25,449 nt of DNA, from IMG/VR virus record IMGVR_UViG_3300030101_001126, positions 1 to 25,449 of that record. The stretch is one strand, 5' to 3'. Positions 3,221 to 9,801 of the stretch are shown here, one piece after another. This DNA is from a virus. Positions within the stretch are counted from its first letter, which is position 1. Each line of letters opens with the position of its first letter. The notes beneath the pieces are model-generated. The model was given only the letters and a program-made list of their open reading frames with translations, made no database searches and was not told the DNA's origin. A program made the position numbers and the translations under genes.

Positions 3221-5371
3221 ATGAATTTAGATTTAGTAAAATTATCGCATTATAATATCCCACATTTAATAGAAGATTCTAAAAATGATTGGATCAGTTT
3301 TGGTGAAGATAATTTATATCCCAATTATTTATTGGAGTTATTTTTAGGAAGTGCTATTAATGGTGCTTTAATTAAGTCAATAGGTGCTATGATTTATGGA
3401 GAAGGTTTAGCTGCAACTAATGCAGATGAATCAGATGCCACAAAAGAATCTTTTTTAAGATTAACGGAACTATTACACAATTCTGATGATGATGTGTTAA
3501 AAGACCTAGCGATGGACTTAAAACTCTTTGGAGGTTGTTATGTTAATGTTATATGGTCAAGAGATAGAAGCAAGATTGCTAAAATACATCATATTCCTGC
3601 ACAATATATAAGAAGTGGTAAAATGGTAGATGGTGAAATAGATACATATTATTATAGTGCAGATTGGTCTAAAGTAAGAAAAGCAGAATACAAACCTAGA
3701 CCATACAAAGCATTTAACACAGAAGATAGAACTCAAGCAAGTCAGATTCTAATGATTAGAGATAAAAACCCTGCTTTATTTTATGGATTTGCACCTGATT
3801 ATGTAGCTGCTACAGATTGGATTCAAATGGAATTGGAGATTGCTCAATTTCATTTATCTAATATAACTTCAGGAATGACACCTTCTATGCACGTTGGTTT
3901 TTCTAATGGAGTACCTACAGAAGAAGAAAGAAGAACTATAGAAAGACAACTGAATCAAAAATTTGCAGGTAGTGGTAATGCAGGTAAAATACTTATTACT
4001 TTTAATGATGGTAAAGAAACAGCACCTGTAATAGAACCTATCCAAATGAATGATGCTCAATCAGCTTGGGAAGGAATGAGCAAACAAGCCGTAAATCAAA
4101 TTCTAGCAGGGCATAGAGTTACAAGTCCTATATTATTTGGTATTCGTTCAGAAGGTGGTGGTTTAGGTAATAATGCTGATGAATTACGAGATGCTTACAG
4201 TTTATTTAACAATACTGTAGTGATTCCCTTCCAAAACACGCTTTTAAAGGGTTTAGACAAGATATTTAGAGTAAATGATATAAACCTTGATTTGTACTTT
4301 AAAACGCTTAAACCTGCTGATTTCATTGATTTAGAAGTTACTAAAACACAATCAGAAGAAGACCAAGAAAAAGAAGGTGTTACAAATGAAGATATAGAAA
4401 GTGAAGATTTAAGAGAAGAATTTAAAGACTTACAAGATATAGATACTAAACCAACTAAAGGAATGGTAGAAGAAGCAGAAAAGGGTTTAGAATGGCGTAG
4501 AGAACACGATAGAGGTGGAACACAGGTGGCAGTAGCTAGAGCAACTAATATTAAAAATGGTGATAATTTATCTTTTGATACGATTAAAAGAATGAATAGT
4601 TTTTTTGCTAGACACGAAGTAGACAAGAAAGCAGAAGGATTTAATCCCGGTGAAGAAGGTTTTCCTAGTGCAGGTAGAATAGCTTGGGCATTATGGGGAG
4701 GTGATGCAGGTCAATCTTGGGCAAAAAAAAAAGTTAAAGAAATAGAAAATGTTAGAGATGATTTATCTGATGAACAATTTAATGAATTATTAGATAATCT
4801 TAAAGGAGAAAAAATAGATGCTGAAAAATGGGAAATTGTAGATGAACAAGATTATGTAGAAGATTATGAAGAATGGGCAAAATCTTTAATTAAAGAACAT
4901 ACTAAAAAAGAGTTTGCAGATGAAATAAGAAGCAAAGAAGATGCTTTTAGTTATTTAGATAAATCCTTCTATAGAGTTAGATTTAAGTATATTAAAAAAA
5001 GCAGAAAGCCAAGTAAATCTACTAGAACATTCTGCAAAAATATGATGACATTAGCTAGAGCAGGATTTGTATATAGAATAGAAGATATAGATAAAGCTAG
5101 TAGAGAAGGTGTAAACAGGCAATTAGGACATAAGGGTAGAGCTTATGATTTGTTTAGATTTAAAGGTGGTGTTTATTGTAGACACGCTTGGAAGGTGATT
5201 CTATATAGATTAAAAGATGGAACAGAATTAAGAGAAGGTCAAAGTTTAGATGATTATAAAAAGACAGATAGTATACCTAAAACTTATACACCAAAACCAA
5301 AAGGAATAAAAGATGCAGTAACCGCACCTGAAAATATGCCAAATCAAGGACATTATCCGGGAGTAAAATAA
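3221..5371 (+). CDS. Portal protein with extra C-terminal modules
   Basis: 716 residues, well above the ~400-500 of many portals. Residues 1 to about 370 carry the portal-like core: an early YPNYLLELF segment, the long helical SDATKESFLRLTELLH region, HIPAQYIRSGK, and a C-terminal part with HRVTSPILFGI, GLGNNADELRDAY and NNTVVIPFQNTLLKGL, typical of portals that form the dodecameric DNA gate. An acidic linker (about 376-413) leads to a second module (about 414-505: EEAEKGLEWRREHDRGGT, MNSFFARHEVDKKAEGF, SAGRIAWALWGGDAGQSWA), a compact domain I recall from other phage head proteins. A third module (about 575-670) has SFYRVRFKY, RTFCKNMM, YRIEDIDKA and FRFKGGVYCRHAWK, and resembles a conserved domain of Bacteroidota phage head proteins. 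It may place minor-head functions in one chain with the portal. The tail is basic and Pro-rich. Confidence 0.8.
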   Translation: MNLDLVKLSHYNIPHLIEDSKNDWISFGEDNLYPNYLLELFLGSAINGALIKSIGAMIYGEGLAATNADESDATKESFLRLTELLHNSDDDVLKDLAMDLKLFGGCYVNVIWSRDRSKIAKIHHIPAQYIRSGKMVDGEIDTYYYSADWSKVRKAEYKPRPYKAFNTEDRTQASQILMIRDKNPALFYGFAPDYVAATDWIQMELEIAQFHLSNITSGMTPSMHVGFSNGVPTEEERRTIERQLNQKFAGSGNAGKILITFNDGKETAPVIEPIQMNDAQSAWEGMSKQAVNQILAGHRVTSPILFGIRSEGGGLGNNADELRDAYSLFNNTVVIPFQNTLLKGLDKIFRVNDINLDLYFKTLKPADFIDLEVTKTQSEEDQEKEGVTNEDIESEDLREEFKDLQDIDTKPTKGMVEEAEKGLEWRREHDRGGTQVAVARATNIKNGDNLSFDTIKRMNSFFARHEVDKKAEGFNPGEEGFPSAGRIAWALWGGDAGQSWAKKKVKEIENVRDDLSDEQFNELLDNLKGEKIDAEKWEIVDEQDYVEDYEEWAKSLIKEHTKKEFADEIRSKEDAFSYLDKSFYRVRFKYIKKSRKPSKSTRTFCKNMMTLARAGFVYRIEDIDKASREGVNRQLGHKGRAYDLFRFKGGVYCRHAWKVILYRLKDGTELREGQSLDDYKKTDSIPKTYTPKPKGIKDAVTAPENMPNQGHYPGVK

Positions 5372-6082: not shown

Positions 6083-6560
6083 TGGTGACTTGTATATGAT
6101 TGTTGATGTAAACGACACAACAGGATCAGCAGAGGGAACAACTAAAAAAATAGATTCAAAATTTGTTATTCAAACAGATAAGATTTCAGTATCTAATGCT
6201 GAAGTAATAGATTTGCACAATAACGAAAAAATATTAGTAGGTGCTTTAAGTGGTTATATGATTACTCCAATTAGTGTTACATGTTTATGTACTTATGCAG
6301 CTTCTACAGAAAGCTCAAACAAAAATTTATATATAGGATATGATGATTCATCTGATGTTAAATATTGGGATAATAGTTCTAGGTTTATGGGAGGACTTTC
6401 AACTGATACTACTTTTGTATTTGGAGGGCGTTCTGCAGGAGGTGGAACAAAAGAGGGATCAACAATAAATTCTCCTTTGGTTATTTGGTCTAGTGGAGCA
6501 TTTAATGGTGGGTGGTCTATGGATGTTTATGTGACTTATTGCTATACTAAAATTATATAA
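6030..6560 (+). CDS. Tail/head fibre-like structural protein
   Basis: 176 residues starting MAGQRLTDKTALDQQTGSGD. The N-terminus up to YMIVDVNDTTGSAEGTTKKI resembles the virion-attachment end of small fibre or spike proteins in Bacteroidota phages, in which a start of this type is followed by a trimeric beta-rich body. The remainder is Gly, Ser and Thr rich with beta-like segments and ends GWSMDVYVTYCYTKII. It has no signal peptide. It closes the head block and is coupled to the next gene by a TAATG overlap. A role in host contact is plausible; an alternative is an unrelated structural protein. Confidence 0.5.
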   Translation: MAGQRLTDKTALDQQTGSGDLYMIVDVNDTTGSAEGTTKKIDSKFVIQTDKISVSNAEVIDLHNNEKILVGALSGYMITPISVTCLCTYAASTESSNKNLYIGYDDSSDVKYWDNSSRFMGGLSTDTTFVFGGRSAGGGTKEGSTINSPLVIWSSGAFNGGWSMDVYVTYCYTKII

Positions 6561-7579
6561 TGATGAGATTATTACTTTTATTATTACCTTTTATATCTTT
6601 TGGTCAAATAGACTTTTTTAAATACTCTACTATTTATACATCAATGAGTATAAATACTAGTATGGTAGAAGATGAAGATTATATATCTATTGCTAAAGGA
6701 TATGAAGATGTTACAGAAATTAATCCATACGATTATAATTTAACTATAGGCATCCGAAAAATTGCACGATTTGATTATGAATATAAAGTAAAAACTTGGT
6801 ATTATGGAAATGAAAAAGCTATTTCAGACAATTCTACTATTGGTAATGCTACCAATTTTGAGTATGTTTTTAATTATTCGTTTATCCGTAGTCGTGGTGA
6901 TTTATATACTGAACAGAATTTTTGGCTTCGATACTTGGGAAATAGATTCGTAACTAAAGTACAATATACTGATAATCAAAGAGTAGATTTAAAATATAAT
7001 TCTTTTGATACTAGATTACGTATTACTAAAAATGATTTTGACTTTACTATAGGTGGTGTATTTAGAATACATAATCCATACGGCATAGTACCTATTAGAG
7101 ATATTTGGGTGCAGGGCGAACAATCTTTTCCACAACTAGCAGAAGATTTTGGATATTCTAGTGAGTATGTAAATGGTGGTTGGCATTGGTTTAAAGATGG
7201 TGAATTACTAGCTACATCAAATGATGAATTCTATAAACACTATTTTGGTCAAGCTATAGCTGATTTTAACACTAGAGAATTAGAGAAAATAGGAATGGTA
7301 AAAGAAATTAGTTTAGTTGTAGGTGCAGAATACTATAAATACAATCCTAATTTTTGGCTTCACATTTGGGGTAATCTAATGCCTTTTCACTATGGTTTAG
7401 ATAGATTCTCTTATGAATATGAAGAAAGTGCCTTAAAACGCTTAGAATGGGATGCAGGAGGTATATTAGGTGTTAGAATAAACAAGCATTTAGGAGTGTT
7501 TGTAGAAGGAACACATTTAAAGTATTGGGGTAAAAGCATATATCAATGTAAATTTGGTTTTAATTATTTAATCTATTAG
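6560..7579 (+). CDS. Secreted outer-membrane beta-barrel-like protein
   Basis: 339 residues. It has a clear N-terminal signal peptide (MMRLLLLLLPFISFGQ, likely cut after Gln16) of flavobacterial type. The mature part contains many amphipathic alternating segments (YNLTIGIRKIARFDYEYKV, FDTRLRITKNDFDFTIGGVF, ISLVVGAEYYKYNPNFWLHI) and ends in FGFNYLIY, an aromatic final residue typical of outer-membrane barrel proteins recognised by the BAM machinery. This points to insertion in the host outer membrane rather than the virion. It overlaps the preceding stop by one base. Possible jobs are altering the host surface against superinfection, a channel, or a step in lysis; none is shown by the sequence. 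A second ATG follows at 6563. Confidence 0.6.
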   Translation: MMRLLLLLLPFISFGQIDFFKYSTIYTSMSINTSMVEDEDYISIAKGYEDVTEINPYDYNLTIGIRKIARFDYEYKVKTWYYGNEKAISDNSTIGNATNFEYVFNYSFIRSRGDLYTEQNFWLRYLGNRFVTKVQYTDNQRVDLKYNSFDTRLRITKNDFDFTIGGVFRIHNPYGIVPIRDIWVQGEQSFPQLAEDFGYSSEYVNGGWHWFKDGELLATSNDEFYKHYFGQAIADFNTRELEKIGMVKEISLVVGAEYYKYNPNFWLHIWGNLMPFHYGLDRFSYEYEESALKRLEWDAGGILGVRINKHLGVFVEGTHLKYWGKSIYQCKFGFNYLIY

Positions 7580-7581
7580 CT

Positions 7582-8094
7582 ATGAAAAATTTAATAAAAT
7601 TATTCTTTATTTTTTCTTTATCCTTTTCACAAGGGTATGATTTTCAACAATTATGTATAGAATGTGCAGAACAAAATGGTTTCTTTTGTGGTGATGACCC
7701 TGCTAATTGGACACAGTATTCACCAAATGGTTGTGTTCCTAATGGAGAAGGTGGATTATATTACTTAAATGATGGGTGGGCAGACTGTACAGATGCAAGT
7801 GATGAAGCAGATGCAGTTCCTACACCAATAGAAGAATGTTTACCACCTCCACCAATTTGCGATACAGTATATGTAACTGAATACATAACTCTAATAGACA
7901 CAATAATACAATTTCAAGATATTTTTACAATAGAATATATTGACTGTGTAACAGGTTTACCTTGTAATATAACAATACAAGAATTAGTAAACGAATCAAA
8001 AAATACAGGTTTATTATATGACCTTAATGGTAAAGTAATAAGAAAACCTGAAGGAGTATACATAAAAAATGGAAAAATAAAATATAAATTATAA
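7582..8094 (+). CDS. Secreted Cys-rich protein with LDLa-like motif and T9SS-like tail
   Basis: 170 residues. A signal peptide (residues 1-17, ending SLSFSQG) is followed by a Cys-rich segment (25-75). Its end, NDGWADCTDASDE (63-75), fits the calcium-binding signature of LDL-receptor class A repeats (DGxxDCxDxSDE), with FFC at 34-36 and GCVPN at 50-54 in the right order, though not all six cysteines are present. A Pro-rich hinge (PTPIEECLPPPPIC) leads to repeated DT(V/I) segments of linker type (CDTVYVTEYITLIDT). The C-terminus, YDLNGK (146-151) then GVYIKNGKIKYKL, resembles the short form of the type IX secretion C-terminal sorting motif. The protein therefore looks exported and perhaps surface-displayed by host machinery. 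It follows the barrel gene by two bases. The function is unknown. Confidence 0.6.
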   Translation: MKNLIKLFFIFSLSFSQGYDFQQLCIECAEQNGFFCGDDPANWTQYSPNGCVPNGEGGLYYLNDGWADCTDASDEADAVPTPIEECLPPPPICDTVYVTEYITLIDTIIQFQDIFTIEYIDCVTGLPCNITIQELVNESKNTGLLYDLNGKVIRKPEGVYIKNGKIKYKL

Positions 8095-8330
8095 TGAATA
8101 TATTTAAAGATAATAACGAATGGAATGAGAAAGCTATAATTGGTTCTATAGCTTTTTTAATAATGTGTTTAATAATGATAGCTGATTTACTTACAGGGTG
8201 GGTAGGCAAAGACCTAATCATCAATGAGTTCATATACGATTCCTTTGTGTGGGTTGTGTTAGGTTGTTTTGGAATTAGTGGTGTAGAAAAGGTGTCTAGT
8301 AATAAATGTAATAAACTTTGTGACAAATGA
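8094..8330 (+). CDS. Small membrane protein with two segments, holin-like candidate
   Basis: 78 residues. Two hydrophobic segments are visible (about 15-36, IIGSIAFLIMCLIMIADLLT, and about 45-63, FIYDSFVWVVLGCFGISGV), with a charged N-terminus and a short Lys/Cys-rich tail. Size, topology and position at the head of the lysis cluster would suit a holin, an antiholin or an accessory inner-membrane protein. The better holin match in this cluster is the gene at 9418. It is coupled to its neighbours by a TAATG start and an ATGA end. Confidence 0.55.
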   Translation: MNIFKDNNEWNEKAIIGSIAFLIMCLIMIADLLTGWVGKDLIINEFIYDSFVWVVLGCFGISGVEKVSSNKCNKLCDK

Positions 8331-8620
8331 AAATAAATGAAGGTTCAGAATTTACTTTAGATTTAAAAACAATTATCTTAATTGTAGGTGGTATTATATC
8401 TTTATCTGCTACTTATTATACTTTAACAGCAGAAATTGAGGTAGCTAAAACACTACCTAAAATGCCTATTAGTGAAAAAGAATTTGAACTGAAAGATGCT
8501 TTAATACGGCAAACTATACTTAATAATGGAACACAATTAAAAACACAGCAAGAGCAATTAAATAAGATTGAAAACAAAATTGATAAAATTGATGAAAGGT
8601 TATACAACATTAATAAGTAG
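8327..8620 (+). CDS. Single-span membrane protein with coiled coil, spanin-like candidate
   Basis: 97 residues. A short N-terminus precedes one transmembrane segment (about 14-32, TIILIVGGIISLSATYYTL), then a linker (IPKM-type, KTLPKMPISEKEFEL) and a C-terminal coiled coil (about 50-95, LKTQQEQLNKIENKIDKIDE). This is the topology of an inner-membrane spanin subunit, with the coiled coil in the periplasm, but no matching lipoprotein partner with a clear lipobox was found. It starts with a 4-base ATGA overlap. Alternatively it is a tail- or holin-associated membrane protein. Confidence 0.5.
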   Translation: MKINEGSEFTLDLKTIILIVGGIISLSATYYTLTAEIEVAKTLPKMPISEKEFELKDALIRQTILNNGTQLKTQQEQLNKIENKIDKIDERLYNINK

Positions 8621-8918
8621 TTTATTTTTTTTAATAAGCTATTCTCAAGTATCAGTTGTTCATTTTAATAGTGAATGGAATAAGGAAAATAATTATGATA
8701 TTTCAACTTTAAAAGATTGTCAAACATCAACCATTGTTATTTGCCATAATGCTGATTTACAGGAAAAGCATAGTATTATGTCTGTGCCAACTGTTATTAT
8801 TTTTGATAATAATATAGAGATAACTAGATTTCAGGCTAATATAATGTTACAGCTAGATGCAACTAAAAATGAAATACAACAAGCTGTAGACAAAGTTCAT
8901 CTTGCTAAATTTGAATAA
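8592..8918 (+). CDS. Periplasmic thioredoxin-fold protein lacking the CXXC site
   Basis: 108 residues from the ATG at 8592 (upstream in-frame TTG codons exist at 8568, 8580 and 8589). The signal peptide is MKGYTTLISSLFFLISYSQ. The mature part follows the thioredoxin pattern: beta strand VVHFNSEW, a helix, TIVICHNAD, then SIMSVPTVIIFDNN with the cis-proline (Pro66) that is the family hallmark, and a closing helix. The redox CXXC is replaced: after Trp29 come N-K-E-N, so neither cysteine is there. The fold probably survives without dithiol chemistry, perhaps as a binding or chaperone protein in the periplasm. It overlaps the spanin-like gene by 29 bases and precedes the endolysin by two bases, which suggests a role in lysis or envelope handling. 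Confidence 0.55.
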   Translation: MKGYTTLISSLFFLISYSQVSVVHFNSEWNKENNYDISTLKDCQTSTIVICHNADLQEKHSIMSVPTVIIFDNNIEITRFQANIMLQLDATKNEIQQAVDKVHLAKFE

Positions 8919-8920
8919 TT

Positions 8921-9421
8921 ATGCGTTTATCTAAATCATTTCTTTTATCTGAATTTACTAGGTCGAATACTGCTATGCGACTAGGAATAGATAATAAACC
9001 TTCTAAAGAGGGTATTTTAAAATTGACCTTATTAGCCACCGAACTCCTGCAGCCGATACGGGAACGATTATCAGCTCCATTGAGAATTACGAGTGGCTAT
9101 AGGTCACCTCAACTTTCTGAAGCTATAGGCTCATCTTCTAATTCACAACATTGTAGATATGAAGCAGTAGATTTACAATTTGTTAAGAGGGGTAAAATGG
9201 ATAATCTAATGATATATCAAGCCTTAATAGATTTAGATTTAGACTTTGACCAATGTATATTAGAGTTTGGAGATGCCACACAAAACCAAGACCCTACTAA
9301 ACCTGATTGGATTCATTTAAGTTGGAAGGTGGTTGATAATAGACGACAAGTTTTGGTAGCTTATAAAGATGAAAAAAACAAAACAAAATATAGACCAAAA
9401 ATAAAATACAATTCAATATGA
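8921..9421 (+). CDS. M15-family peptidase endolysin
   Basis: 166 residues. The peptidase M15A pattern is clear: LLSEFTRSNTAMRLGI at the N-terminus, the helix LLATELLQPIRERL, RITSGYRSPQLSEAIG, SSNSQHCRYEAVDLQF and DWIHLSW. The zinc ligands are His77 and Asp84 of SQHxxxxAVD, and His132 of IHLSW. The glycine usual in HxxGxAxD is Tyr80 here, a deviation close to the metal site. Enzymes of this type cut peptide bonds in peptidoglycan cross-links. There is no signal peptide, so release depends on a holin, such as the gene overlapping its stop by four bases (ATGA). Length is normal for a single-domain phage endolysin. Confidence 0.85.
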   Translation: MRLSKSFLLSEFTRSNTAMRLGIDNKPSKEGILKLTLLATELLQPIRERLSAPLRITSGYRSPQLSEAIGSSSNSQHCRYEAVDLQFVKRGKMDNLMIYQALIDLDLDFDQCILEFGDATQNQDPTKPDWIHLSWKVVDNRRQVLVAYKDEKNKTKYRPKIKYNSI

Positions 9422-9801
9422 AATTGTTAGGCAAATTATTAGGTGGTAATTTTTTAGATTCTGTTAATAAGATTGTGGATAATGTTGTTACCACAGATGC
9501 AGAAAGAGAGCAATTAAAAAATAACTTGCAAGAAATAATAGCTAAAGCTGAAAGTCAAGCACAGGAACAAGTTACTAGAAGATGGGAAGCAGACACTAAA
9601 GCAGGGTGGTTACCTGCAAATATTAGACCTTTGACATTAGCTTTTTTGACAATGGTATTTGTGTTAATATCATTTTTTGATGGGAATATAGGACAGTTTA
9701 AAATTAATGCTGCATACATTCCTGTCTATCAAACTTTATTAATGGTGGTGTATTCTGCATACTTTGCAGGAAGAAGTGTTGAAAAAATTAAAAAGAAATA
9801 A
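9418..9801 (+). CDS. Holin of the 3TM (GTA-type) family
   Basis: 127 residues. The family hallmarks are RRWEADTKAGWLPANIRPLT, then the membrane segment LAFLTMVFVLISFF, a short loop, and a second hydrophobic segment YIPVYQTLLMVVYSAYFAGR with the closing GRSVEK. This matches the Pfam holin family first described in gene-transfer-agent release (PF11351). The N-terminal ~60 residues form an amphipathic and coiled region. Two membrane segments are obvious; the third would be the N-terminal amphipathic helix. It directly follows the endolysin with an ATGA overlap and would open the inner membrane for it. Confidence 0.8.
   Translation: MKLLGKLLGGNFLDSVNKIVDNVVTTDAEREQLKNNLQEIIAKAESQAQEQVTRRWEADTKAGWLPANIRPLTLAFLTMVFVLISFFDGNIGQFKINAAYIPVYQTLLMVVYSAYFAGRSVEKIKKK

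Follow-up and report, generated by a model that had tools for sequence, protein, structure and literature searches.

The locus treated here raises the question whether a phage may use the type IX secretion system (T9SS) of its host to export a protein of its own. The window (the whole stretch of DNA that was analysed) is a viral record of 25.4 kb with genes for capsid, portal, terminase, M15 endolysin and holin. At positions 7582-8094 on the plus strand, it contains an ORF with an ATG start that encodes 170 amino acids; coordinates and reading match those in an earlier note on this DNA. There, the product was described as a secreted protein in which a signal peptide is joined to an LDL-receptor class A (LDLa)-like motif at residues 63-75 and a T9SS-like tail. 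This combination in a single protein proved to be real and conserved. The main reading, to which we assign a probability of roughly 0.6, is that the phage encodes a cargo of the host T9SS, which is shown on the surface or released and acts with the outer-membrane barrel encoded upstream.

The protein family and its signal peptide

In an alignment-based scan, at least 214 IMG/VR contigs were found to carry a relative of the LDLa-like protein (80 of these contigs were kept), while no relative was found among 50,697 records of named phages. The layout is the same in all members: the signal peptide is followed by the LDLa-like module, the linker and a YxDCxTGxPC segment, and the tail stands last. 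Their sizes range from 148 to 305 aa because the linker, which is built from DT(I/V)xxxEY repeats, varies in length. In the window protein it covers residues 94-118 (7861-7935, plus strand) and is modelled with a pLDDT below 50.

The N-terminus is hydrophobic, as in a Sec signal peptide, and carries a Gln at the predicted cleavage site. The predicted signal peptide spans residues 1-16 (7582-7629, plus strand), with the cut expected before Gln17. This Gln is present in 61 of 61 aligned members, and a Gln directly after the signal peptide is likewise invariant in the partner barrel (59 rows) and in a thioredoxin-like protein encoded nearby (25 rows). A Gln after the cleavage site corresponds to the Q-rule of the Bacteroidetes (PMC5837995). 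From this rule and from the relatives of the phage, a Bacteroidota host is likely.

In the full-length alignment of 61 rows, the residues D64, W66, D68, C69, D74 and E75 are invariant. The same holds for the Cys at positions 25, 28, 36, 51, 86, 122 and 128 and for Y146, G150, Y160, I161 and G164 of the tail. Because these Cys, Asp and Glu residues are kept in the homologues, as are those of the tail, the lack of conservation that had been named in advance as evidence against the proposal is not seen. The gene is under purifying selection, with a median dN/dS of about 0.12 over its whole length (about 0.10 for the module, about 0.15 for the C-terminal part).

A variant LDLa module

The LDLa-like module comprises residues 24-86 (7651-7839, plus strand) with six invariant Cys and was recognised by alignment, profile comparison and cellular intermediates. 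Residues 63-75 read NDGWADCTDASDE and include the calcium-site-like loop DGWADCTDASDE (residues 64-75; 7771-7806, plus strand), whose invariant acidic positions may bind calcium. Acidic residues at these positions of LDLa domains hold calcium. The corresponding cage, D..D..DE, is present as D64, D68, D74 and E75. Across 72 distinct phage copies of the module, these four residues, W66 and C69 never vary and position 71 is either D or N; the pattern that collected the copies itself required part of these conserved residues.

Against the Pfam LDLa model (PF00057), the window protein scores 12.3 bits, below the cut-off of 24.1, and the canonical order of six Cys is not retained. Of the LDLa calcium signature that had been claimed for this protein, the acidic residues stand, while the phage module as a whole is an LDLa variant and not a canonical domain. 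It shares with PF00057 the acidic calcium-site residues and the positions of Cys 1, 2, 3, 5 and 6. Unlike PF00057, it has a long loop between Cys 2 and Cys 3 (GDDxxNWTxYSPxG), an Asn in place of Cys 4 and an extra N-terminal Cys. A profile of 35 modules found VLDL-receptor and glucosidase II beta chains as its best matches among PDB sequences (best E = 0.0085). AlphaFold2, run without metal, modelled residues 21-70 with a pLDDT of about 80-88.

The kinship to LDLa is made firm by the closest cellular homologues of the window protein, which, unlike it, pass the Pfam cut-off. L010, a 1123-aa protein from a Crocinitomicaceae MAG, contains the module twice in tandem and reaches 26.8 bits. L012, from the Neomarinimicrobiota, carries the module beside further LDLa repeats and reaches 51.2 bits. 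Together with a third carrier, L011, they also show how the Cys pattern differs: in the alignment, Cys 4 is present and the additional N-terminal Cys absent in L011 and L012, and L010 and the phages have Asn for Cys 4, a displaced Cys 6 and the additional Cys, which is Cys 25 of the window protein. This swap suggests that a C25-C86 bond may have taken over from the C4-C6 bond; the phage module would then represent a naturally occurring LDLa variant whose disulfides are paired differently.

The cargo reading also draws on L010 and L011, both of which carry at the C-terminus a full T9SS signal that scores over the Pfam cut-off. The L010 gene (L010:6001-9369) encodes a secreted protein that, besides the two tandem LDLa variants and the T9SS signal, contains PKD and Kazal domains. 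Its module was detected in only one of the 199 genomes of its order.

The C-terminal tail

The last 27 residues of the window protein read LLYDLNGKVIRKPEGVYIKNGKIKYKL. They form part of a putative short T9SS-type C-terminal signal at residues 129-170 (7966-8091, plus strand), which was recognised from three predicted strands, from profile matches and from the motifs described in PMC11969387. Motif B lies at residues 144-155, motif D at 158-161 (GVYI) and motif E at 164-170. One tail pattern fits 78 of the 79 members, with 42-44 residues after the conserved PC. In the viral loci (13,825 ORFs), the tail pattern is seen in members of the family only. AlphaFold2 places strands at residues 145-147, 158-162 and 165-169 with a pLDDT of 81-85. 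The model of the whole protein is of low to modest confidence (mean pLDDT 69, pTM 0.43), which counts against the T9SS reading, and a fold search with it gave no meaningful match.

The closest described counterpart is found in Prevotella intermedia. Here, 48 short T9SS signals of 40-55 residues were reported, with one predicted three-stranded sheet and the motifs B, D and E, of which the first two are separated by 1-6 residues; docking to PorV was predicted, and cleavage was determined experimentally for five of them (PMC11969387). The phage tail has in common with these signals the B/D/E motifs, the short distance between B and D, the three predicted strands and the length of 40-55 residues. 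The P. intermedia proteins are, however, cellular proteins with five proven cleavages, whereas the phage tail is a signal predicted from sequence. That short signals are proven in P. intermedia only also counts against the cargo reading. As judged from its sequence, the phage tail matches the recognised short, three-stranded type of T9SS signal, which suggests that this signal, hitherto reported from P. intermedia, serves elsewhere too.

The likeness was quantified by profile comparison. A profile of 28 phage tails scored 22.0 against 29 long Flavobacteriales T9SS signals, above 200 of 200 column-shuffled controls, and the match corresponds to motif B. When the second half of the tail was compared alone with the long signals, 1 of 200 shuffles scored as high; this half is not significant, a point against the T9SS cargo. 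Over 395 Bacteroidia genomes, the tail profile detected one clear short tail (L206), in a protein that ends in IYDLSGRRVQQMQKGIYIVNGKKVLCR, with an E-value of 2.9e-4 per genome, so that about 0.1 chance matches are expected over the 395 genomes. The same scan additionally returned one long signal (L208) and one match that is not C-terminal. The genome with the short tails encodes SprA and PorV and contains 11 tail matches, eight of which were checked as lying at or near protein C-termini. The phage tails align with these eight cellular tails over both motif blocks (probability 94.7, E = 6.4e-8), and 0 of 200 shuffles reach the real score. The cellular short tails match the long T9SS signals with a probability of 92.8.

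Two null results weigh on the other side. Among 114 genomes of Crocinitomicaceae, the tail profile found no convincing short tail, the sole match (E = 0.006) not being C-terminal. Furthermore, no T9SS model of Pfam or NCBIfam matches the window protein. The T9SS tail that had been proposed is consequently upheld by profile and motifs as a short three-stranded signal, but not by any curated model. In the same way, the suggested profile search with LDLa and T9SS models leaves the window protein without a passing match, while L010 and L012 do pass for LDLa.

The partner barrel

Directly upstream, at 6560-7579 on the plus strand, lies a gene for a predicted outer-membrane beta-barrel protein with a signal peptide. 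It was identified by AlphaFold2, which models about 12 strands, by Foldseek, in which outer-membrane barrels rank first with marginal E-values, and by gene pairing. The position of the LDLa-like gene directly after a barrel gene, as given in the earlier note, was confirmed, and the pair is moreover invariant. The LDLa-like gene was found in 106 of 106 barrel loci with at least 4 kb downstream, the barrel gene in 132 of 132 LDLa-like loci with at least 4 kb upstream, and the barrel is upstream on the same strand in 151 of 151, all three counts including contigs fetched twice and close relatives. These loci contain 123 distinct barrel sequences. The fixed pairing is a new observation. In view of this unbroken linkage of the two genes, their products are proposed to act together.

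When 59 barrel members were compared with Pfam and NCBIfam (PF19572 and PF11751 included), zero matches were obtained, and no relative was found among the INPHARED records of named phages. A viral barrel in BFVD, A0A516LKJ4, is a structural relative (TM-score 0.77, 30% identity, E = 4e-27). A relationship to PorV or PorP/SprF was considered and rejected, as the barrel resembles neither PF19572 nor PF11751 in sequence or profile; a weak SprF match stemmed from the signal peptide region and was gone after trimming. This non-kinship counts against the T9SS-cargo reading. In Flavobacterium johnsoniae, the gene of a type B cargo likewise adjoins that of a dedicated outer-membrane barrel, PorP/SprF (PMC12618676). 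Unlike in that system, the phage barrel is encoded upstream and has no detectable kinship to PorP/SprF, and the phage tail is nearer to the short form of type A.

In some loci, a further gene lies between the two. In some of the larger phages (L023:7286-7990 and L007:4286-4990), a GH16 gene was seen at this place (PF00722, E = 8e-16 in L023). In L006:4807-4995, it is a proline-rich, lipoprotein-like ORF of 63 aa, the layout of which recalls an outer-membrane spanin.

The remaining cassette

Downstream of the LDLa-like gene, three more genes follow on the plus strand. The first encodes a small membrane protein with two membrane helices predicted by eye (8094-8330; 51 of 83 loci), the second a protein with an N-terminal membrane helix and a coiled coil (8327-8620; 80 of 83 loci) and the third an exported thioredoxin-like protein (8592-8918; 80 of 83 loci). 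In this last, thioredoxin-fold protein, WNxxN replaces WCxxC; the W and both N are conserved, and N30 and N33 are invariant in 25 rows. The protein is, on the strength of this motif, redox-dead. The lysis genes of the window (8921-9801, plus strand) adjoin the cassette, with the M15 endolysin at 8921-9421 and the holin at 9418-9801. That the cassette is packed tightly against virion and lysis genes points to expression late in infection. In several larger phages, a gene for a PAP2-family phosphatase is located close to the cassette (e.g. L037:11320-11859).

Proposed mechanism and alternatives

According to the main reading, the LDLa-like protein would be exported by Sec and cut by signal peptidase before Gln17, a step for which the sequence evidence is strong. 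In the periplasm, the disulfide-rich module would fold around its calcium-type acidic loop. The C-terminal stretch of about 40 residues would act as the short T9SS signal and be taken by the SprA translocon and the PorV shuttle of the host, bringing the protein to the cell surface or releasing it. The upstream barrel may receive or hold the displayed protein. Phages of this family probably put a protein of their own on the surface of the infected cell.

The purpose that we favour, if only tentatively, is a change of the infected-cell surface, for instance to exclude other phages or to keep released virions off dying cells. Slightly more speculative is a self-contained display pair, in which the phage barrel replaces the host shuttle and, with the T9SS cargo, holds the calcium-site module outside the cell; such a pair would be the phage counterpart of the independently arisen cargo/SprF pairs. 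The main rival of a surface-changing purpose, itself unlikely, is an envelope-lysis complex. Here, the barrel, the LDLa-like, the coiled-coil and the thioredoxin-like proteins would open the outer membrane late in infection in place of spanins, and the tail would be a docking strand for the barrel and no T9SS signal. The cassette does cover the inner membrane, the periplasm and the outer membrane, and in the window it immediately precedes endolysin and holin. In addition, the coiled-coil protein is laid out like an inner-membrane spanin, one of its members matches a holin/anti-holin family, and the barrel and the tailed protein are inseparable. However, there were zero matches to spanin families, the cassette of many larger phages has different neighbours and no recognised endolysin next to it, and cellular tails of the same type sit on large secreted proteins in a T9SS-positive genome.

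The inseparable gene pair would also be expected if the tail bound in or beside the phage barrel and the T9SS were not involved, the likeness to its signals being a matter of old ancestry. The protein would then be periplasmic or surface-bound, with the barrel itself carrying it to the surface or with the protein plugging the channel. That curated T9SS models miss the tail fits this idea, as does the fold search, in which many barrels match equally, among them the polypeptide transporter FapF. The FapF match is weak, though (E of about 0.01), and the T9SS-type motifs are under purifying selection and closely match functional-looking cellular short tails; we consider this explanation even less probable than a lysis complex. 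By far the least probable is that an ordinary phage protein bears both motifs as chance resemblances. The weak database scores of the single sequence would agree with it, but the profile tests beat shuffled controls, the intermediates exceed the LDLa cut-off and bear T9SS signals, and conservation is strict over divergent phages.

The cargo reading is not without precedent. The earlier note had envisaged a new kind of host-surface modification, but a T9SS cargo encoded by a phage is not wholly new: one published case was found, Cryophage (2020), with three type A T9SS cargo proteins in variable genome islands (PMC7468147). As in the present family, genes of a Bacteroidetes phage carry a T9SS sorting domain and are thought to exploit the host system. 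In Cryophage, the cargo proteins are large (endoglucanase, GH39 and PA14), carry long type A signals and are encoded in variable islands of a single phage. The protein described here is, in contrast, small and LDLa-like, has a short signal, is fixed in hundreds of phage contigs and is paired with a barrel. The family is therefore set apart in protein type, signal type, prevalence and its fixed barrel partner. If the main reading is true, use of the host T9SS by widespread uncultured Bacteroidota phages is a standard step of infection rather than a rarely acquired trait. The LDLa-like/barrel pair is then a testable candidate for phage remodelling of the infected-cell surface.

Phages that carry the cassette

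The cassette occurs in two types of phages. Those of the window type are about 28-30 kb in size and share the capsid and portal of the window; the larger type is mostly 40-90 kb and has different virion genes. Nearly all window-type sequences form one clade of the barrel tree, nested among the larger type, which implies that the cassette probably moved between the phage types rarely and long ago. Frequent exchange was rejected because two label changes suffice to explain the tree, and one of these rests on a single row.

For the window portal, the best named relatives are Nonlabens phages, and for the terminase, Bacteroides phages are among the best matches. Within the portal ORF (window 3221-5371), a stretch of about 120 residues (approximately 406-536) is 49-67% identical to pieces of genes of Roseobacter and Synechococcus phages, which are annotated as capsid or portal; it is far more alike to these phages than the remaining portal ORF.
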